The notes under the pieces are model-generated. The model made no database searches. It had not been told where the DNA came from and saw only the letters and a list, made by a program, of their open reading frames with translations. From contig NZ_CP075338.1 of assembly GCF_023278365.1 (NCBI RefSeq), positions 1,736,001 through 1,800,000 on the forward strand: DNA of 64,000 bases. The letters are read 5' to 3'. Positions 19,463-28,776 of this stretch are shown in pieces. How positions within the stretch are numbered: position 1 is the stretch's first letter; each line of letters opens with the position of its first letter. The translations under genes and the position numbers were made by a program. The stretch is from Epilithonimonas zeae. Lineage in GTDB: Bacteria; Bacteroidota; Bacteroidia; Flavobacteriales; Weeksellaceae.

Positions 19463-20356
19463 CTACTCTTCCCTAACTGTATATTTTTCAAGAATATAAT
19501 AAGTAAGCGGACGCAGATCACTTCCGTTTTCCGGATTGATTCCATTATCTGTAAAAAACTCTACTTCGTTCTGATACTTAGAATACCAAATATTTTTAAT
19601 AGAACTAATTGTATCAGGCTGAGTTATCTTTTTGAAATTAGCCACTTTTTTAGGATCAATTGCAATTAAATTATTTTTAGTCTGATTACAATCTTCCGGA
19701 ACATATTCTTTTCCATTCCAATACATACACTGCTTCGTTGCAGCTAATAATCCTAACCTATTTCGATTAGTTTCTATTTCTGGTTTCTTTTTATCTGCTT
19801 TATACATTTTATTTCCAACAAACAAACCGCCACAAAGAATTGCCCCAACGATTCCTAAGTTGCTATGTTTAGTCAAAAATTCCGGAATATTAAAAATAGG
19901 ATTATTAGTTACTGTAATAAATATTTTAGAAAATTTCTCTGAAATCGATTCTTCATCATCGTTAATACTAACCTTTACTGTTGTTGACTCGCCAGTCGTT
20001 TTTGTTAATGTATAGTTCTTACAAAAATCATCGTAATCTTTATATCCCACATATTTACTTAATTGGTCCAATGTAATACCATCAATATAACGATCCTTAT
20101 TTTTTTGAACTAAATCTGTATAATACCTTTCAAACATCTTATCTGTTTTTGCAGATCCAAATAAACCTTCAAAATGAGTACTAAGATATCCGGCAAGATA
20201 ATTTTTGCTGACATTTTCTTTTCTCAACTCTTTTTCTGCTTGCTCAAAAGCTGTTTTAACTAAAGTTTTCTTCTTTTCATACATATACTTTAATTGAAGA
20301 ATTAATTCCGTGTCCAAATTAGACAAATCCCTGTCTGAAAAATTACGGTTTTCCAT
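19463..20356 (-). CDS. Unrecognised single-TM protein
   Basis: This 297-residue protein is read from ATG 20356 (MENRNFSDRDL); starts at 20374 (ATG) or 20380 (TTG) are also open. Residues ~10-125 are helical and contain LAGYLSTHFEG, KMFERYYTDLVQKN and LSKYVGYKDYDDFCKNY. I associate this arrangement with an uncharacterised Bacteroidota regulator-like domain. A membrane helix lies near residues 172-190 (LGIVGAILCGGLFVGNK), followed by a ~100-residue tail with CMYWNGKEYVPEDCN. So the helical domain is probably cytosolic and the tail periplasmic, or the reverse. It is divergent from the twin peptide genes and could be their partner. Function unknown. Confidence 0.65.
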   Translation of the reverse strand: MENRNFSDRDLSNLDTELILQLKYMYEKKKTLVKTAFEQAEKELRKENVSKNYLAGYLSTHFEGLFGSAKTDKMFERYYTDLVQKNKDRYIDGITLDQLSKYVGYKDYDDFCKNYTLTKTTGESTTVKVSINDDEESISEKFSKIFITVTNNPIFNIPEFLTKHSNLGIVGAILCGGLFVGNKMYKADKKKPEIETNRNRLGLLAATKQCMYWNGKEYVPEDCNQTKNNLIAIDPKKVANFKKITQPDTISSIKNIWYSKYQNEVEFFTDNGINPENGSDLRPLTYYILEKYTVREE

Positions 20357-20397
20357 AAAAATGATACAATCCATGTCCAAATCGTGTCCAGCTTCTG

Positions 20398-21105: not shown

Positions 21106-22764
21106 TTGAAAAGTTATATTTTTTTTCTATTTGTATTCATTTATTCTTGTTCAGAGAAAACATTTTCCGATACAAAACCTGTCAATAATTTTTACGAAAA
21201 AGCTTGGGAATATCTTGACAAAAGAGAAAACATAAACGCTTTTATTGAGTTTGAAAAAGCAAAAGATTATTTTCTGAAAGAAAGAGACAGCTTTGGAATA
21301 GGAAAATGTTTAATGAATATGGCAATCATTCAAGAGAAAATGGGAGATGGTTTTGGCAGTCAGGAAACTGCTATAAATGCTTTATCTTATTTTAATGAGA
21401 AAAATATTGGCCATCAAGATTATCTATCAACAAACTATAACACTTTAGGAATTACGGCCAGCAAATTAAAAAACTATAATAATGCTGTAAAATTCTATAA
21501 AAAGGCATTGAGTTTTACCACAAATCTACAGGACAAAATAATTTACCAAAATAATTTAGCAAATAATTACACCAAGAATAAAAATTATCATCAAGCCATA
21601 AAGATATTCAGTAATACGTTAAAAATTGACAATCATAAAGATGTTAATTATGCAAGAACATTAACAAATTTAGCAAAAACAAAATGGCTTCAAAACCCCA
21701 GTTATAATCCAGTTACAGATTTTCAGAAAGCATTAAAAATTAGACTAAAAGAAAAAGACCTATGGGGATTGAATTCGAGTTATGCACATCTAGCAGATTA
21801 TTATTCAAATAATAAAACGGATTCAGCATTATTTTATGCTAAAAAAATGTATTCTGTTGCCAAAGAATTAAAAAGTCCGGATGATCAGATTGAAGCTTTA
21901 CAAAAATTAATTTTTCTAGAAAATCCTCAAAACTCAAAAAGATATTTTACCGTTTATCAAAAACTAAATGATAGTCTTCAAACCGCAAGAAATAAAGCTA
22001 AGAATCAATTTGCTCTCATCCGATATGAAACTGAAAAAAACAAAGCTGATTTTCTGAAGGCAAAAGCTGAAAGTGCCGAGCGACAAAATCATATTATTCA
22101 GCAATATATTGTGATTGGCATCGTAATATCATTATTGATTTTATCAACTTATATATTCAAAAGAAGACAGAAAAGACTTCAGCAAGAAAAACTCTTAGAA
22201 GTAAAAAACACAGAACTAAAAATCTCCAAAAAAGTCCACGACAAAGTTGCCAACAGAATTTATCAATTGATGTCACAAGTTGAAAATACAGAAATAATTG
22301 ATAAAGATTCTCTTCTGTTCGGATTGGAAAATGCGTACGAAACTTCCAGAGATATCTCTTATGAAAATAAAGACATCAACGAAAATCAAAGTTTTTCTGA
22401 ACAGCTTTATAATATGCTGAATTCTTATTCTTCAGACGCTGTGAAATTTATTCCCATCGGAAATAATGAAAAACTCTGGGAAGGTGTCAGTTTTCAGAAT
22501 AAAACAGAAATTTACCTGGTTCTTCAGGAATTGATGACGAATATGAAAAAGCATAGCCAAGCGAATATCGTTTCCATTAAATTTTCTAAAGACAATTCGA
22601 GAATAAATATCTCATATACAGACAATGGAATAGGAATTAAGAAACTTTCTCCAAAAAATGGTCTGCAAAATATGGAAAACCGTATTAATGCTATCAAAGG
22701 AACAATTATTTTTGACACAGAAACAAATAATCTATTGAAAATCAACATTTCATTTCCAGTCTAA
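21106..22764 (+). CDS. Lipoprotein-type TPR sensor histidine kinase
   Basis: This 552-residue protein starts at TTG 21106, chosen because it alone yields the signal MKSYIFFLFVFIYSCSEK with a lipobox ending in Cys. TPRs run from about residue 25 to 290 (for example FGIGKCLMNMAIIQEKMGD, NLANNYTKNKNYHQAIKIF). A coiled linker and a membrane helix (about 334-352) follow. The HisKA_3-like dimer helix has phospho-acceptor His378 (KKVHDKVANR). The ATPase domain carries an N-box near Asn479 and DNGIGI at 506-511. The TPR domain should be periplasmic. The response regulator gene follows after 10 bp. Confidence 0.92.
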   Translation: MKSYIFFLFVFIYSCSEKTFSDTKPVNNFYEKAWEYLDKRENINAFIEFEKAKDYFLKERDSFGIGKCLMNMAIIQEKMGDGFGSQETAINALSYFNEKNIGHQDYLSTNYNTLGITASKLKNYNNAVKFYKKALSFTTNLQDKIIYQNNLANNYTKNKNYHQAIKIFSNTLKIDNHKDVNYARTLTNLAKTKWLQNPSYNPVTDFQKALKIRLKEKDLWGLNSSYAHLADYYSNNKTDSALFYAKKMYSVAKELKSPDDQIEALQKLIFLENPQNSKRYFTVYQKLNDSLQTARNKAKNQFALIRYETEKNKADFLKAKAESAERQNHIIQQYIVIGIVISLLILSTYIFKRRQKRLQQEKLLEVKNTELKISKKVHDKVANRIYQLMSQVENTEIIDKDSLLFGLENAYETSRDISYENKDINENQSFSEQLYNMLNSYSSDAVKFIPIGNNEKLWEGVSFQNKTEIYLVLQELMTNMKKHSQANIVSIKFSKDNSRINISYTDNGIGIKKLSPKNGLQNMENRINAIKGTIIFDTETNNLLKINISFPV

Positions 22765-22774
22765 AATAATACCT

Positions 22775-23440
22775 ATGTTTACAAAAATTCTTATTGCCGA
22801 AGATTACGAAAGTTCTAATATATCTGTCCAAAAAGCATTAGAAGACTTAAAAATTGCCAATCCAAAATATGTAAATTATTGCGATGATGCATTTAGCAGA
22901 ATCAAAATGAGTTTACAAGAAAACAATCCCTTCGAACTACTGATTACAGACCTTTCCTTTGATGAGGATCACAGAGAACAGAATCTTAAAAATGGTCAAC
23001 AGCTTATTTCTGCAGCAAGAGAACTTCAACCAAATCTGAAAATTATTGTTTTCTCCGTTGAAAAAAAGGAAGTTATTATTGAGAAACTTTTCAAGGAACA
23101 GCAAATCAATGGTTATGTAAAAAAAGGCAGAGAAGACGTCAAAGATTTGAAAAAAGGAATAAGAGCGGTTTATAACAATGAAAAATATATTTCTTATGAT
23201 TTGAAAACGAACAGCTCTGAAAGAAATTCTTTCGAATTCTCTGAATATGACATTCTAATCGTTTCTTTATTAGCTAACGGCATTCTCCTTAAAAACATAC
23301 CTGATTATTTGAAAGAAAATAACATCAAACCGGCAAGCATGAGCGCTGTTGAAAAAAGATTAAAAGAAATTAAAGAATCTTTGGATATCAATAGCAACGA
23401 ACAGTTGATTGCTTTTTGCAAAGATTTTGGGATTATCTAA
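22775..23440 (+). CDS. NarL/FixJ-type response regulator
   Basis: This 221-residue protein has a receiver domain (1-125) with acidic pair Glu9-Asp10 (IAEDYES), phospho-acceptor Asp59 (LLITDLSF), and a Ser then Lys in IIVFSVEKKE. The C-terminal ~65 residues (EYDILIVSLLANGILLKNIP, SAVEKRLKEIKESLDIN) form a LuxR-like helix-turn-helix. It is the obvious partner of the kinase 10 bp upstream. It should bind DNA when phosphorylated; candidate targets are the neighbouring peptide genes or the downstream operon. A terminator follows. Confidence 0.9.
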   Translation: MFTKILIAEDYESSNISVQKALEDLKIANPKYVNYCDDAFSRIKMSLQENNPFELLITDLSFDEDHREQNLKNGQQLISAARELQPNLKIIVFSVEKKEVIIEKLFKEQQINGYVKKGREDVKDLKKGIRAVYNNEKYISYDLKTNSSERNSFEFSEYDILIVSLLANGILLKNIPDYLKENNIKPASMSAVEKRLKEIKESLDINSNEQLIAFCKDFGII

Positions 23441-23465: not shown

Positions 23466-23500
23466 AAAAACTTTCAAATTGATTTTGAAAGTTTTTTTGT
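23466..23500 (+). terminator. Terminator after response regulator gene
   Basis: AAAAACTTTCAAA / TTTGAAAGTTTTT inverted repeat with a 5-base loop and a T run. It separates the two-component genes from the operon starting at 23575. Confidence 0.85.
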
Positions 23501-23574
23501 TTTTACGGATTTCCGTAAAAAAAGAATTTGAGACAGGGCTACTTTTGGATTGTTAAACAAGTAAAAAAATAACA

Positions 23575-23907
23575 ATGGGAAAATTCATAATTACAAAAAG
23601 AAAAGACGGAGAATATCAATTCAATTTGAAAGCTGGTAACGGAGAAATCATCCTAACAAGTGAAGGTTACAACACAAAAGCTGGCTGTAAAAACGGAATA
23701 GAATCCGTAAAAATTAATTCACAAATCGATTCAAGATTTGAAAGAAGAACTTCGACAAACTATAAAGATTACTTTGTTCTGAAAGACGGGAATGGAGAAA
23801 TAATAGGCAAAAGTCAATTATATTCTACAAAACAAGGAATGGAAAACGGAATTGCTTCTGTAAAACAAAATGCACCAGTCGCAGAAACTATTGACGAAAC
23901 AAATTAA
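23575..23907 (+). CDS. YegP-family (DUF1508) protein
   Basis: This 110-residue protein is made of two DUF1508 repeats: GEYQFNLKAGNGEIILTSEG...GIESVKINS (about 12-49) and YFVLKDGNGEIIGKSQLYS...GIASVKQNA (about 64-100). YegP proteins are small, very stable beta-rich dimers of unknown function, often linked to stress and close to phage-related or accessory genes. It is the first gene of a tight operon; the next start codon is 5 bp after its stop. Confidence 0.9.
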   Translation: MGKFIITKRKDGEYQFNLKAGNGEIILTSEGYNTKAGCKNGIESVKINSQIDSRFERRTSTNYKDYFVLKDGNGEIIGKSQLYSTKQGMENGIASVKQNAPVAETIDETN

Positions 23908-23912
23908 TAACT

Positions 23913-24983
23913 ATGGAACTCAAATTAAAACTAGAGCAACTGCATCAACGTGTCAATGGACTCAAAGACCAAATACAAACCGAAGAAGCAACAAAAACAG
24001 CTTTTGTAATGCCTTTTATCCAGATTCTTGGTTATGATATTTTCAATCCTACAGAAGTAATCCCGGAATTCATTGCGGACATTGGAACCAAGAAAGGCGA
24101 GAAAGTAGATTTTGTTGTAAAGAAGGATAACGAACCAATTCTAATTATAGAGTGTAAAAGTTGGAAAGAAAATGCGGATGCGCACAATTCTCAGCTTCAT
24201 CGGTATTATCACGTTTCCAAAGCCCGATTTGGAGTTTTGACTAATGGAATCATTTACAATTTCTACACTGATTTGGAGAAGCCAAACATTATGGATGAAA
24301 AACCATTTTTCACAATCAATCTTGATGATTTGAAAGACAGTTCCATCAAAGTTCTTGAGAGTTTTACAAAGTCAGGTTACAACCTTGAATCGATTTTGGA
24401 CTCTGCGGAAGCTCTGAAATATATCAAAGCCATAAGAAAAGAATTCGAAAAAGAAATTGAAACCCCTTCTGATGAAATCGTAAGATTATTGGTCAATCGA
24501 TTTTTTGAGAGACCACTAACAGCAAATAGAATGGTTGCTTTTAAAGAATATACCAAAAGAGCTTTAAGCCTATCAATTTCAGAATCTATTAGTTCCCGTT
24601 TAAAATCTGCTTTGGTTATTAATGATAATATCGAGACAGAAAAAACAACTGTTTCTACGACAAACATTGATCAGAATAATGAGACTTCAAAAGTTATCAC
24701 TACAGATGAAGAATTAGAAGCTTTTCAAATTGTAAAAGCCATTTTACGCGAGAAGATCTCTGCTGAAAGAATTGCTTACAGAGACACACAATCTTATTTC
24801 GGGATTCTGTTGGATGACAATAATAGAAAGCCAATTTGCAGATTTCATTTCGGAGCTAATAGAAAATTAATTGAGTTATTCCATAACGGGAAAGATTCTG
24901 GAGAGAAAATGAATCTTGGTTCTCTAGACGAGATTTATAATCACAGAAGCGAACTTCATCAAACCATTGAAAATTATAATTAA
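23913..24983 (+). CDS. Solitary HsdR N-terminal-type nuclease-like protein
   Basis: This 356-residue protein carries in residues ~20-140 the type I restriction enzyme R N-terminal pattern: TKTAFVMPFIQILGYDIFNP, then VDFVVKKDNEPILIIECKSW with the PD-(D/E)xK residues Asp, Glu and Lys, and FGVLTNGIIYNFY. There is no helicase domain, and no hsdM or hsdS gene is near, so this is not a complete restriction system. The second half is helical with a C-terminal beta segment (YFGILLDDNNRKPICRFHF) found in other stand-alone members. A nuclease or nucleic-acid sensor role is possible. Tight operon position. Confidence 0.85.
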   Translation: MELKLKLEQLHQRVNGLKDQIQTEEATKTAFVMPFIQILGYDIFNPTEVIPEFIADIGTKKGEKVDFVVKKDNEPILIIECKSWKENADAHNSQLHRYYHVSKARFGVLTNGIIYNFYTDLEKPNIMDEKPFFTINLDDLKDSSIKVLESFTKSGYNLESILDSAEALKYIKAIRKEFEKEIETPSDEIVRLLVNRFFERPLTANRMVAFKEYTKRALSLSISESISSRLKSALVINDNIETEKTTVSTTNIDQNNETSKVITTDEELEAFQIVKAILREKISAERIAYRDTQSYFGILLDDNNRKPICRFHFGANRKLIELFHNGKDSGEKMNLGSLDEIYNHRSELHQTIENYN

Positions 24984-24989
24984 ACGACT

Positions 24990-25268
24990 ATGAAAAAACT
25001 ACTTTTTACTTTATTGACATTAGGATTATTAATCCCAACAACTTACGAAGCTTCAGCAAAAAATTATTCAAATACAGAATTTTTTGCTAAAAGACAGAAG
25101 AAGAAAAAATCTTCTAAAAAGAAAAAAACATCAAAATCGTACTCAAAGAAAAATAGCTGTACATACAACGGTTATCCGTTAGAAGTGGGACCAAGAGGCG
25201 GATGCTATTATTGGTCAGGAAACAGCAAAGAATATGTGGACAGAAGCTACTGTTCAGGATGTAATTAG
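24990..25268 (+). CDS. Small secreted Lys-rich protein with Cys motif
   Basis: This 92-residue protein has a signal peptide (about 1-23), then a strongly basic stretch of Lys and Ser (about 34-52). A compact C-terminal module follows: CTYNGYPLEVGPRGGCYYWS, then KEYVDRSYCSGCN. The module has four cysteines and ends in SYCSGCN. The GPRGGxYY core resembles the PBCV-type basic adaptor repeat by eye. The next gene carries the same module behind a lipoprotein signal. The basic part could bind DNA, peptidoglycan teichoic-like polymers or acidic glycans. Function unknown. Confidence 0.7.
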   Translation: MKKLLFTLLTLGLLIPTTYEASAKNYSNTEFFAKRQKKKKSSKKKKTSKSYSKKNSCTYNGYPLEVGPRGGCYYWSGNSKEYVDRSYCSGCN

Positions 25269-25293
25269 GTTTTTAACACTTTAGAATTTGACT

Positions 25294-25497
25294 ATGAAAA
25301 AAATAATTTTATTTTTTATAATCTGTTTATCATTTAATTCCTGTTCTAGAAGCGGAGATTCAGATGGAGATTCAAACAGAAGATGTACTTATAATGGACA
25401 CACATTATATGTAGGAGAAAAAGGTGGCTGCTATTATTTATCCTCTGGCGGAAATAAGGAATATGTAGACAAGAGCTATTGCTCAGGATGTAATTAG
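25294..25497 (+). CDS. Small lipoprotein with the same Cys motif
   Basis: This is 67 residues from ATG 25294 (a TTG at 25288 is also in frame but weaker). The signal MKKIILFFIICLSFNSCSRSG has a lipobox ending at Cys. An acidic linker (GDSDGDS) is followed by the module CTYNGHTLYVGEKGGCYYLS and KEYVDKSYCSGCN. The final seven residues are identical to the previous gene. So the two genes are a duplication of one module placed on different N-termini: basic and secreted versus acidic and lipid-anchored. The next gene starts 2 bp after the stop. Confidence 0.7.
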   Translation: MKKIILFFIICLSFNSCSRSGDSDGDSNRRCTYNGHTLYVGEKGGCYYLSSGGNKEYVDKSYCSGCN

Positions 25498-25499
25498 CG

Positions 25500-25940
25500 A
25501 TGGAAGCAAATAATTCTAAAAATTTCAAACGATTAGAAATTATCTACAAAACTTTTTTTTCTTTTTGTGCACTTTGCTGTTTTTTCGCTATTCTTCCTTT
25601 GCCACTATCATATTACACATTTCTTAGAATCATCGTTTTCATTGCATCAGGAATTGTGGTTTATTATTTCGGGAGACAGAAAGAATATCATTGGTTAATT
25701 GTTTTCGGAATCATCTTGATTTTATTCAATCCGATTTTTCCCATTCATCTTTATCTCAAAAGTCTCTGGATTCCGATTGACATTGTAACGGGGATTTTAT
25801 TCTTGCTACTGGTCGTCATCAGATTAAAAAAGAAAGAACCACCTCAGGAAATCATCCCGGAAAAACCGACTCCAAAAAAAACATTCAGCAGGGACAGAAT
25901 CATTAGAACTTCATCAAAAAACAATAATAACAATGAATGA
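25500..25940 (+). CDS. DUF6804-like membrane protein
   Basis: This 146-residue protein has four predicted membrane helices (about 15-35, 40-58, 65-80 and 88-108) and a basic, Pro-rich cytosolic tail ending in Asn repeats. The spacing of YYTFLRIIVFIASG, YHWLIVFGIILILFNPIFPI and LWIPIDIVTGILFLL matches my memory of the DUF6804 family, whose function is unknown. The last codons overlap the start of the following TerB-like gene by 8 bp, which suggests translational coupling. Confidence 0.7.
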   Translation: MEANNSKNFKRLEIIYKTFFSFCALCCFFAILPLPLSYYTFLRIIVFIASGIVVYYFGRQKEYHWLIVFGIILILFNPIFPIHLYLKSLWIPIDIVTGILFLLLVVIRLKKKEPPQEIIPEKPTPKKTFSRDRIIRTSSKNNNNNE

Positions 25941-26343
25941 AATTATAGAACCAACCGAAAACCTTAAAGCCCATTTTTTAAGGCTTTATCAAATGGCACT
26001 TTGTGATGACAATTTTAGTCCACTTGAACTGAAAGCGCTTTACAAATCGGCCGAAGAAAGAGGGATATCTCCTAAAAAATTAGACGAAATCCTTTTGAAT
26101 CCTATCAATTCAAAAATCGTGATACCTGAAAATATCGAAGAAAAAATCGATTATCTCTACGATTTAACAGTAATGATCTGGGCTGATGGAATTGTTTCTT
26201 CCAACGAGAGAACTTCCTTGGAAAAATACGTCCTGATGTTCGGATTTATGGAAGAAAATGTATTACAAATCGTGGATTATCTCATAGATTCTGTAAAAGA
26301 AGGAAAAAGTAAAACTGACATTTTTAACGATTTAAAAAACTAA
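25933..26343 (+). CDS. TerB-like helical protein
   Basis: This 136-residue, all-helical protein has two TerB-type halves: FLRLYQMALCDDNFSPLELKALYKSAEERG and YLYDLTVMIWADGIVSSNERTSLEKYVLMFG. Each carries the acidic 'A..DD' or 'ADG' element typical of tellurite-resistance TerB and its DjlA-type relatives. TerB-like domains bind metals or act in membrane-linked stress and defence complexes. It overlaps the membrane protein gene upstream by 8 bp and the coiled-coil membrane protein gene starts 3 bp after it, so a physical complex is plausible. Confidence 0.75.
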   Translation: MNEIIEPTENLKAHFLRLYQMALCDDNFSPLELKALYKSAEERGISPKKLDEILLNPINSKIVIPENIEEKIDYLYDLTVMIWADGIVSSNERTSLEKYVLMFGFMEENVLQIVDYLIDSVKEGKSKTDIFNDLKN

Positions 26344-26346
26344 ATT

Positions 26347-27684
26347 ATGACCAGTAATATCAAAAACATTTTCAGGCTGAAACCTGTTGCAGTTGAGAAA
26401 GAAGAATCTCTTCTTAAAATTGTAGAAACCAACAACAATGGAGAAATAACGGAGGAAAGCAGAAAGAGAACCTACCACGAATCTGGTTATAGAGATAGCT
26501 CTCGCAACAATGGAAACCACACCGCTTTATCGATTTGTCTGGACGCCATCTATTCCAAATTTCAGAATGAGGAAAAAGAATTGGCTGACAAACAAAATAA
26601 ACTGAAAGAGCCTTACATCAACGAGCAAAAAAATAAAGAAACCGAAATCAAAGGTCTTACCATTTCTCTCGATAATAAGGAAGAGCAAATCAAAGAAATT
26701 CAGCAAAACGTTGACACAGTTAAGGATAAAATTGAAACTTTGAAATTCGAAATTAATGATATTCCGAAAAATCCGGAACAGTATCAGATCAATGCAAGCA
26801 AAGGCGCTTCTACAAAATTTTGGATTGGGCTATTGCTCTTGATTCCAATCAGTTTATACCTGTTTACATTTTATATTTCAACTTCCTTCTCGGCGTTCTT
26901 TAAAACATTTGACCCGAATGTGAGCATTATGCAAAGTGTTTTAGATGCACAAGCATTCAACAAGGCTTGGGATGAAGGTCTGTTGGAAGGTGCTTTTGTG
27001 ACTTTGATTCCGTTTGTTTTCCTCGGTTTAGGTTACTTGATTCATATGTTTGGAGAAAACAAAAACTGGCTGAATTATGTAAAAATGTTCCTGCTTTTTG
27101 TGGTGACTTTCGTTTTCGATGCCATTCTTGCTTATGAAATCGAATCTAAAATCTATGAACTTAATAAAACTTTCGATTCTCCACCTTTTGATTTGTCGAT
27201 TGCTTTTACGAAGAATCAGTTTTGGGGAATCATTTTCGCCGGATTTGTGGTCTATATTATTTGGGGATTGGTTTTCGATTTCATTATGAAAGAACATAAA
27301 GAAAAAGATAAAATCAAACACGAGCAAATCAAAAAACAAAAAGACATTCTTGTTCATCAGGACCGCATTACAGGATTTGAAAAACAAATGGAAGAAATCA
27401 AAAACGGTATTGCAAGCATCAAAGAATTAATCATCAAAGCCCGAGGAAGAATCGAAGAACTCCAAAATATTATTGATGGCGTTATCATTCCTACCAAAGA
27501 ATACAAATCTTATGCTTCGGAATATGTCCAGGGCTGGATTACATTTATTGGTGAAAAATTAGCTGTTTCTCATCCTGTAAAGCAAGAAATGATAGAGGAA
27601 TGCAAAAATCAATACAATTATAATCTGAACAAAGTCGGCGCCAATTCTGACAGCCAAAACTCTGTTTACGTCTCTGTTTTATAA
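26347..27684 (+). CDS. Coiled-coil / four-TM / coiled-coil membrane protein
   Basis: This 445-residue protein has a charged N-terminal region with a long coiled coil (about 70-140). Four membrane helices follow (about 156-176, 216-236, 243-262 and 294-316), then a second coiled coil (about 320-385) and a soluble tail. The two coiled coils lie on the same side of the membrane and could pair. No catalytic motif or known family was recognised. Its gene lies between the TerB-like and VWA-like lipoprotein genes with gaps of 3 and 9 bp. The architecture suggests a scaffold or a mechanosensing or gating component (inference). Confidence 0.7.
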   Translation: MTSNIKNIFRLKPVAVEKEESLLKIVETNNNGEITEESRKRTYHESGYRDSSRNNGNHTALSICLDAIYSKFQNEEKELADKQNKLKEPYINEQKNKETEIKGLTISLDNKEEQIKEIQQNVDTVKDKIETLKFEINDIPKNPEQYQINASKGASTKFWIGLLLLIPISLYLFTFYISTSFSAFFKTFDPNVSIMQSVLDAQAFNKAWDEGLLEGAFVTLIPFVFLGLGYLIHMFGENKNWLNYVKMFLLFVVTFVFDAILAYEIESKIYELNKTFDSPPFDLSIAFTKNQFWGIIFAGFVVYIIWGLVFDFIMKEHKEKDKIKHEQIKKQKDILVHQDRITGFEKQMEEIKNGIASIKELIIKARGRIEELQNIIDGVIIPTKEYKSYASEYVQGWITFIGEKLAVSHPVKQEMIEECKNQYNYNLNKVGANSDSQNSVYVSVL

Positions 27685-27693
27685 ACTAATATT

Positions 27694-28584
27694 ATGAAAA
27701 AAATATATTACTTATTAATTGTTTCATTATTTTTTATTCAATGTAAAAAAAGTGAACCAAAAATTGATGATGGTGGAAAAATCAATGATTCGATTGCCAA
27801 TAGCAAGAACTTAAATGTTAGTATTCTCATCGACCTTTCTGATAGAATCAACCCGGAAAAATACCCAAACCCATCAATGGAATATTATCAACGGGATTTG
27901 GAATACATCAAAGCGATCAAAAACGGTTTTATTGACCACGTTAAAAGTAAAAAAGTAATGCAACTGAATGACCAGATGCAGATATTCTTCAATCCAGAAC
28001 CTTCCGATTCCAAAATCAACGACTTTGCAAAGCAGCTGAAAGTTTCATTTGATAAGAATACTTCTAAAGAAATTATCAATCTCATTGATGAAAAATATTC
28101 TACCCTGCCTGAAAAAATTTACCAGTCAGCAATTCAGGACAAACAATATGTCGGTTCCGATATCTGGGGATTTTTCAAAAATAAGGTCAATGATTATTGC
28201 ATCAAAGACAAACATAGAAACATTCTTTTTATTTTAACAGATGGTTATATGTTCCACAAAGATTCTAAATTCACAGAAAATGAAAAAACCTCTTATCTCA
28301 CGCCAGAATTGGTAAAATCCTTAAAGTTGAATACTTCCGATTTCAAAACTAAAATCACTGACAAGGGCCTCGGATTTATCAAAGCCAATGATAAACTCAC
28401 TAATCTGGAAATTGTAGTTCTAGGAATCAATGCGGAAAAGGGAAATCCATTCGAAGGTGATATTATCAAAACCTATTGGGACAATTGGCTGAAAGAAATG
28501 AATGTAGCTAAATATCAGGTTAAAGATGCTGATTTACCGACAAATCTTGAACCTATAATTAAAAATGTAATTCTGAATAAATAA
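27694..28584 (+). CDS. Lipoprotein with VWA-like domain
   Basis: This 296-residue protein has the lipoprotein signal MKKIYYLLIVSLFFIQCKK. The mature part begins with LNVSILIDLSDRINPE, a strand followed by an acidic Asp-x-Ser-like MIDAS element. Later RNILFILTDGYMF and LEIVVLGIN give the central strands of a von Willebrand A fold. The MIDAS is not fully canonical (DLSDR rather than DxSxS), so metal binding is uncertain. It would face the periplasm. It is the last gene of the operon, before a strong terminator. Together with TerB-like and membrane partners this echoes Ter-type systems. Confidence 0.72.
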   Translation: MKKIYYLLIVSLFFIQCKKSEPKIDDGGKINDSIANSKNLNVSILIDLSDRINPEKYPNPSMEYYQRDLEYIKAIKNGFIDHVKSKKVMQLNDQMQIFFNPEPSDSKINDFAKQLKVSFDKNTSKEIINLIDEKYSTLPEKIYQSAIQDKQYVGSDIWGFFKNKVNDYCIKDKHRNILFILTDGYMFHKDSKFTENEKTSYLTPELVKSLKLNTSDFKTKITDKGLGFIKANDKLTNLEIVVLGINAEKGNPFEGDIIKTYWDNWLKEMNVAKYQVKDADLPTNLEPIIKNVILNK

Positions 28585-28606
28585 AACATATTTCTTTTAT
28601 TCTTGA

Positions 28607-28641
28607 ATGAGTTTTCAAAATATTGAAAACTCATTTTTTTA
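28607..28641 (+). terminator. Terminator of the eight-gene operon
   Basis: ATGAGTTTTCAA / TTGAAAACTCAT inverted repeat with a short loop and seven Ts. Confidence 0.88.
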
Positions 28642-28696: not shown

Positions 28697-28705
28697 GTTA
28701 CGATG

Positions 28706-28776
28706 TAGACCCACAGGGATTCGAACCCCGACAGGCGGTACCAAAAACCGAAGTGCTACCGTTACACCATGGGTCT
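28706..28776 (-). tRNA. tRNA-Gln (anticodon UUG)
   Basis: On the minus strand the acceptor arms AGACCCA / TGGGTCT pair fully. The D arm contains GTGTAACGGTAGCAC. The anticodon loop TTTTGGT gives anticodon TTG, and the T arm is CGGGG-TTCGAAT-CCCTG. The anticodon stem has one T-C mismatch at its base. The discriminator is A and CCA is not encoded. Its 3' end faces the accessory region. Confidence 0.93.

Follow-up and report, generated by a model that had tools for sequence, protein, structure and literature searches.

A conserved two-component system and promoter associated with an eight-gene operon of Epilithonimonas zeae and with defence operons of its relatives

The window analysed here is a 64,000-nucleotide stretch of the Epilithonimonas zeae genome (RefSeq assembly GCF_023278365.1, contig NZ_CP075338.1, positions 1,736,001 to 1,800,000 of the forward strand), and our subject is a compact operon of eight genes, numbered 1–8, together with the genes and promoter immediately upstream of it (Table 1). 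The operon is the right half only of a larger conserved unit. A sensor histidine kinase and a response regulator, overlooked with their promoter and regulon by a first-pass annotation made from the letters alone, are part of this unit, and the same promoter stands before several known defence systems in other genomes. We consider it probable that the kinase–regulator pair is a dedicated master switch for an immune arsenal, with the eight genes, a so far uncharacterised membrane defence module, as its resident operon. The firm part of this explanation is the regulon: the sequence evidence for it is strong, and chance can hardly account for the position, the spacing and the co-distribution observed.

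Operator, promoter and two-component system

Relatives of gene 7 were collected from 148 related genomes, 23 of them positive with the window's own included. In a collection covering 84,980 species 340 relatives were found, of which the best 80 were kept. The nearest named relative belongs to Epilithonimonas arachidiradicis (97% identity). Among 94 distinct loci, the kinase and regulator lie upstream of the operon's core (genes 6–8, usually 5–8) in 88; of the six loci without them, two are cut contigs (L088 and L121), one is in Runella and three are true exceptions (L043, L045 and L046). Between regulator and payload, the operator TACGG-N4-CCGTA is exact in 78 of the 88 loci, has one mismatch in 7 and was not found in 3 (L044, L096 and L109). 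All 85 operator-bearing loci have TA..TTTG, which we take to be the -7 element of Bacteroidota (TAnnTTTG), exactly 22 bp past the operator. A role for the palindrome as a terminator was rejected: a separate hairpin with a T-run lies ahead of it, the palindrome itself lacks a T-run, and its distance to the -7 box is a constant 22 bp. The operator recurs with at most one mismatch in the stretch between the kinase gene and the divergent border gene c4 in 77 of 85 loci, as against 2 of 85 shuffled stretches. This suggests autoregulation, although no TA..TTTG at the 22-bp distance was detected for the c4-side operator. TGTCC repeats also recur in the c4–kinase interval, and in many loci (clusters c18 and c36) it encodes small secreted peptides of ~55–70 amino acids (aa) rich in Gly, Pro and Thr, which may act as a signal for the kinase or as its partner.

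Co-distribution of promoter and regulator was assessed in the 148 relatives with a strict pattern of the full 44 bp, regulator presence being scored at E below 1e-30. The pattern gave 183 sites in 50 genomes. Promoter and regulator occur together in 49 relatives, the regulator alone in 4 (G060, G064, G077 and G090), the site alone in 1 (G082) and neither in 94 (Fisher 3e-33), so that 49 of 53 regulator-positive relatives carry the strict promoter as against 1 of 95 regulator-negative ones. Outside the genus the corresponding counts are 26, 4, 1 and 94. A phylum sample of 257 genomes has a strict site in 23 of 26 regulator-positive members (the others being G090, G227 and G241) and in 0 of the remaining 231, and a reversed-pattern control gave 0 sites in the relatives and in the phylum sample. 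Genomes of the genus carry 1–10 sites if they have the main regulator and 1–2 if they have its paralogue only (Mann-Whitney 0.004). About 15 of the strict sites listed fall in the last kinase codons and were left out of the regulon because a conserved protein stretch spells the motif there. One phylum-sample genome (G256) has a kinase-end site only, which gives a stricter count of 22 of 26; for the relatives this check covered the listed sites, with those of G028, G051, G053, G057, G068, G071, G074 and G082 outside it. From co-distribution and position, the regulator is predicted to bind the inverted repeat.

The regulator profile aligns along RcsB (6.6e-10), DesR (2.5e-5) and NarL (1.9e-4) in the PDB, with a receiver and a C-terminal LuxR-type DNA-binding domain; Pfam reports the receiver domain only, and the regulator sequence alone gave no PDB match, only the profile succeeding. 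The kinase matches the DesK kinase in the PDB (4e-6), and its HATPase_c match (1.6e-5) is just under the Pfam cut-off. Systems of the NarL/RcsB/DesR type, such as DesK-DesR and RcsB, resemble the present pair in the structure matches of kinase and regulator and in the constant interval between an inverted-repeat operator and the promoter. The pair differs in its TPR sensor domain and in its putative targets, among which are many defence operons, mutually unrelated and horizontally variable.

Several further copies of these elements were seen. A paralogous kinase–regulator pair is encoded at G000:C1:2971199-2971861 (L213) and in siblings such as G022:C24:10978 and G015:C1:725887, and in ~15 sibling genomes a strongly conserved promoter copy follows the paralogue, often with no clear open reading frame (ORF) behind it, perhaps serving a small RNA or peptide. 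At L210 (genome G071) a kinase–regulator pair with a 78% identical regulator has different flanks, and the same genome has a separate gene 6–8 locus without the pair (L045). The window's own genome contains four exact palindromes, which precede or lie in the eight-gene operon, a gene for a secreted SHOCT-like protein (SHOCT by eye), an operon of c80/c79 type next to a resolvase gene and a TonB-type ORF; the palindrome inside the last is probably there by chance.

Table 1. Features of the conserved unit and its borders, in window positions (AF2, AlphaFold2; TM, transmembrane)
Feature	Position	Strand	Description	Evidence
c4	19463-20380	-	Divergent border gene of unknown function	Cluster in 84/94 distinct loci
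Operator-like palindrome	20344-20357	.	TACGGTTTTCCATA, 1 mismatch, near c4 start	Motif search
Kinase	21106-22764	+	TPR sensor histidine kinase, DesK-like	Pfam TPR, HATPase_c; one TM helix at residues 333-351 (hydropathy)
Regulator	22775-23440	+	Response regulator, RcsB/NarL/DesR kind	PDB profile search
Left hairpin terminator	~23466-23500	+	AAACTTTCAAA...TTTGAAAGTTT then T-run, between regulator gene and operon	Read in sequence
Operator	23504-23517	.	TACGG-N4-CCGTA, TACGGATTTCCGTA	Exact palindrome between regulator and operon
-7 box	23540-23547	+	TACTTTTG	Exactly 22 bp after operator
Gene 1	23575-23907	+	YegP-like, two DUF1508 repeats	PF07411 1.2e-41 (Pfam)
Gene 2	23913-24983	+	HsdR N-terminal type PD-(D/E)XK nuclease	PF04313 HSDR_N 3.9e-14 (Pfam)
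Gene 3	24990-25268	+	Small Cys-rich secreted protein	Weak PHROG 2459 match only
Gene 4	25294-25497	+	Lipoprotein-like, related to gene 3	Same cluster as gene 3
Gene 5	25500-25940	+	DUF6804 membrane protein, 4 hydrophobic stretches	PF20619 4.5e-22; hydropathy
Gene 6	25933-26343	+	TerB-like helical protein	PF05099 0.013, under Pfam cut-off
Gene 7	26347-27684	+	4-TM protein, long coiled-coil arms	AF2 model and hydropathy
Gene 8	27694-28584	+	VWA-fold lipoprotein	AF2 model and PDB matches
Right-end terminator	28605-28636	+		Terminator scan
tRNA-Gln	28705-28776	-	Adjoins right border of unit	

Genes behind the promoter in other genomes

From 80 regions and the earlier ones, 100 distinct promoters were parsed, 78 of which lie away from kinase–regulator loci. 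In 71 of these 78, an ORF of at least 40 aa begins no more than 220 bp from the -7 box, at a median of 36 bp. Comparison with the PADLOC library identified Gabija (GajA 1e-250 and GajB 2e-219, L374), Hachiman (HamA 6e-108 and HamB 2e-286, L368) and CBASS (cyclase 4e-110 with TRIP13 4e-114, L367) behind the promoter, as well as SIR2-HerA (L350), bSEFIR (L369), Lamassu LmuA (1e-131, L340), TIR-TM (9e-104, L385), DUF3644/PDC-S19 (L366) and a type II methyltransferase (L377). DndB, AbiC-like and AlbA_2 proteins are also encoded there, as are DUF262-type proteins identified by eye.

The PADLOC comparison took in 48 operons from the 78 sites, with ORFs of at least 150 aa in the first four genes and three near-duplicates dropped. 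At 1e-10, the regulon proteins, 87 in number, matched 323 families; the 83 control proteins matched 14, most of which are generic AAA or ABC families. Of 20 regulon proteins hand-picked for PADLOC, 17 match at this threshold, one (L372) to a TPR model only. By a loose count, ~14 of the 48 operons hold a PADLOC-supported defence protein; in the remainder, small secreted proteins, lipoproteins and unknowns predominate. In a reverse search, from defence family to promoter, GajA was the sole family and three loci were covered. The GajA operons of L401 and L403 carry degenerate operators in the same place and with the same spacing, one with both half-sites symmetrically changed (TATGG...CCATA), hinting at operator variants.

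Other promoter-borne genes have less familiar products. At L358:636-4197, L276 and L425 the promoter is followed by an operon for a 343-aa membrane protein, a P-loop GTPase-like protein (by eye) and a 517-aa protein; the third has no Pfam match and the second no PADLOC match, and the operon is a candidate new defence system. L326, L418, L422 and L423 (same order, genus label g35) have a second regulator, the promoter and a secreted 267-aa endonuclease/exonuclease/phosphatase (EEP)-like protein, again identified by eye. In L333 (o20) and L375 (o62) the genes behind the promoter encode short tandem peptide repeats (STLRGGG-like and GLQGSDGRM-like, respectively).

The conserved unit and its core

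The first-pass annotation had described a compact operon bounded by strong terminators, and all eight ORFs were found on the plus strand where it had placed them, with spacings of 5, 6, 25, 2, -8, 3 and 9 bp. The right terminator was recovered by the terminator scan; the left hairpin is visible in the sequence and has too few G-C pairs for the scan's rule. The YegP and HsdR assignments are backed by Pfam, and the TerB-like assignment of gene 6 falls below its cut-off. Genes 3, 4, 7 and 8 have no Pfam family above cut-off. An NCBIfam search of the eight proteins named no system, and the PADLOC library gave no confident match to any of them (best PDC-S48 at 8.7e-7, a partial match of gene 6, and Cas4 at 4e-4 for gene 2), which agrees with the annotation's remark that no described system has this exact set.

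The 94 distinct loci divide the operon into two parts, a distinction that had been missed: genes 1–4 form a variable slot and genes 6–8, usually 5–8, a constant core. Gene calls number 94 for gene 7, 92 for gene 8, 81 for gene 5, 80 for gene 6, 75 for gene 2 and 66 for gene 1, and the gene-3-type cluster is present in 23. By profile, gene 8 was detected in every locus, and gene 6 was not detectable in twelve Pedobacter loci. Genes 7 and 8 are adjacent in 19 of the 19 phylum-sample genomes that hold both. The independent scattering that the annotation had named as grounds for abandoning its proposal is thus seen for genes 1–4 only, while genes 6–8 stay together. Its label of 'stress or defence type' gains from a core kept as a unit and from a promoter common to known defence systems, and its interpretation as a whole is partly supported. 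The variable slot, from regulator to gene 5, holds gene-3-type Cys proteins, SH3 (c9), bPH-SHOCT (c20), TM2 (c24), YidD (c31), DUF6232 (c34) and others; in many Pedobacter loci SNase genes (c28) follow gene 8. A c4 representative had no Pfam match.

The identities of gene 7 suggest horizontal transfer, because gene 7 of Pedobacter, which belongs to another order, is 61–69% identical to that of the window and so closer than several members of the window's own family (~42%). Empty sites are also found. In sibling genomes without gene 7 (L202, L205, L209 and L211), the kinase–regulator pair is followed immediately by the chromosomal gene that elsewhere comes after gene 8. The operator and -7 box persist behind the regulator without such an operon in L202 and L211, and no operator is left behind the regulator in L203, L205, L206, L207 and L209. 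At L212 a different payload, an AAA+ ATPase module (c99-c103; 149, 565, 58, 173 and 515 aa), occupies the slot, and the same module is present in the payload slot of L029, L114 and L073, as alternative or addition.

Within the core, the gene 6 profile gives a weak match to a solved TerB-family protein (2ou3, E 0.024). Gene 7 is predicted to have four TM helices (AF2 pLDDT 83, pTM 0.54); it has no PDB match at E 0.001, and the PDB matches listed for it were generic coiled coils and were set aside. The VWA-like lipoprotein of the first-pass annotation is invisible to Pfam and is upheld by the gene 8 model (pLDDT 87, pTM 0.84), which places it in the VWA fold, VWA domains being among its best PDB matches (Z ~13). 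Its lipobox Cys17 is found in at least 90% of alignment rows. The MIDAS motif is DxSxS; gene 8 has an invariant D47-L-S49-D50-R51 and a conserved D183, and thus lacks the full motif, with R at the last position. Ter systems comprise a TerB-like protein, a VWA protein and a membrane partner, much as the core does, but here the TerB match is under the Pfam cut-off, none of the eight proteins matches the TerC or TerD families and the VWA protein is a lipoprotein.

Three natural variants bear on the function of the membrane pair. On plasmid pSP2_2 of Runella sp. SP2, genes 7 and 8 are fused into a single product of 704 aa, in which an additional hydrophobic helix precedes the VWA part; the fusion lies in a type III-B CRISPR locus, flanked by WYL on one side and Prim-Pol/cas2/cas1 genes on the other. 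At L225 the gene 7–8 pair is near CARF-PDDEXK, CARF and RT-Cas1 genes. A gene-7 relative at L220, behind the same kinase–regulator pair and promoter, has an N-terminal PLD nuclease domain (PLDc_2 4e-23). Next to it come a gene for a gene-8-like lipoprotein and then gene 2, and a comparable pair is present at L235. The Runella fusion and the PLD domain make plausible the envelope-spanning complex with a nuclease-like arm that the annotation had proposed. The membrane pair thus occurs in type III loci, as do type III CRISPR membrane effectors such as Csx23 and CorA. By contrast, there is no CRISPR beside the window's operon, which by Pfam or PADLOC has no cas gene beyond weak Cas4-type matches of gene 2, and in the PADLOC library gene 8 has no detected CARF domain and gene 7 only a CARF_TM match at 0.004. 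A search of phage and viral records found no gene 7 relative, and the module is therefore not commonly phage-borne; among plasmids only Runella pSP2_2 carries one.

Gene 2 is a full-length match to an endonuclease family (PHROG 4225, 1.2e-124), and a PDB search with it returned nothing useful. With type I restriction enzymes it shares the HSDR_N domain and conserved catalytic residues: D66, E80, K82 and Q94, which we take to be the PD-(D/E)XK positions, are invariant in nine aligned sequences. Unlike those enzymes, gene 2 is a 356-aa protein without a motor, and the operon has no helicase motor and no HsdM or HsdS partner.

Competing explanations and significance

In the explanation we favour, the TPR domain of the kinase, lying outside the inner membrane, would respond to envelope disturbance, and the kinase would phosphorylate the NarL-like regulator, as is usual in its family. 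A regulator dimer on TACGG-N4-CCGTA would then recruit RNA polymerase to the -7 box from the fixed distance of 22 bp, the site and spacing being marked by conservation. The local operon would be switched on together with the separately acquired defence operons that relatives carry behind the same promoter. The TerB-like protein, the 4-TM coiled-coil protein and the VWA lipoprotein may form an inner-membrane complex, with the VWA domain periplasmic and the coiled coils cytoplasmic, and the fusions and neighbours suggest that this complex could sense or block DNA entry with nucleases such as the HsdR-N protein. Most likely the module acts at the inner membrane, with VWA outside and the TerB-like and nuclease parts inside. 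That the operon itself is antiviral we infer from the regulon to which it belongs, the nuclease it encodes, the fusion with PLD and the CRISPR loci.

A bolder form of this explanation, to which we give nearly an even chance, is that of a mobile 'immune promoter': unrelated defence systems carrying the same 44-bp activator site and promoter would come under one inducible command on entering a Bacteroidota cell that bears the pair. The resident operon would then be a new envelope-level defence system, in which the VWA lipoprotein, the 4-TM coiled-coil protein and the TerB-like protein recognise incoming DNA or phage and guide interchangeable nucleases (HsdR-N in trans, PLD in cis, exported SNase or EEP).

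Several observations weigh against a dedicated immune switch. A random 10 of the 67 regulon proteins that were not hand-picked gave 0 PADLOC matches at 1e-10, so that the enrichment is carried by whole systems in ~14 of 48 operons and not by most proteins. The window's genome has one exact full promoter only, that of the operon, and its two other noncoding palindromes precede genes of unknown function. Two of the three GajA loci in the family have degenerate sites only, some genomes retain the kinase and regulator without the operon, and the regulator's paralogue may share the operator. Many regulon genes, moreover, encode small secreted proteins or lipoproteins of unknown role, which makes a general envelope-stress regulon possible. 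In this main rival, whose chance we judge to be real but minor, the kinase and regulator govern envelope stress in general, the operon has a protective or repair function at the envelope comparable to that of Ter or Psp systems, and defence operons came under the same control because envelope damage is a useful warning of phage. The DesK match of the kinase also fits, DesK-like kinases being known membrane sensors, as does the resemblance of the TerB-like and VWA proteins to Ter stress systems; complete and unrelated defence systems directly behind the promoter, and a core found in type III CRISPR loci in two lineages, argue the other way.

It is unlikely, in our estimate, that genes 5–8 are an accessory sensor that feeds envelope information to the kinase and is upregulated by positive feedback, rather than effectors. 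Their membrane and lipoprotein components would suit such a sensor, as would the close association with kinase and regulator seen in 88 of 94 distinct loci, but several relatives keep kinase and regulator without genes 5–8, at least three loci (L043, L045 and L046) keep genes 6–8 with no kinase nearby, and the gene 7–8 pair occurs in the CRISPR loci of Runella and L225. That the operon is a plain chromosomal one, for housekeeping or metal stress and unconnected with immunity, is very improbable. The names YegP and TerB are tied to stress, the operon is chromosomal and gene 7 lacks phage or viral relatives; this account is already disfavoured by the promoter survey, the promoter being common to defence systems, and it sits poorly with patchy presence (23 of 148 relatives), a variable gene slot and empty sites.

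Known kinds already include two-component systems, Ter-like parts and the regulation of individual defence systems at the transcriptional level. WYL/HTH regulators of CBASS and BREX and quorum-sensing control of CRISPR likewise place immunity genes under transcriptional control; here, by contrast, one dedicated phosphorelay and one invariant promoter are common to many different systems. To our knowledge, no dedicated phosphorelay with a single invariant promoter for many unrelated immune systems has been known. PMC12462963 appears to deal with transcriptional control of immunity genes. A literature search to which most subscription journals and preprints were closed found no description of the regulon or of the core module, and the TerB-like/4-TM/VWA core is a candidate new system.

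How bacteria switch on their many defence systems jointly is largely an open question. If the favoured explanation is true, coordinated inducible immunity would become directly testable through one kinase–regulator pair and the identical promoter before CBASS, Gabija, Hachiman, Lamassu and SIR2-HerA. The promoter would also serve as a search key, in that genes behind it in Weeksellaceae, Flavobacteriaceae or Pedobacter, including operons without any known family, would be candidates for defence.

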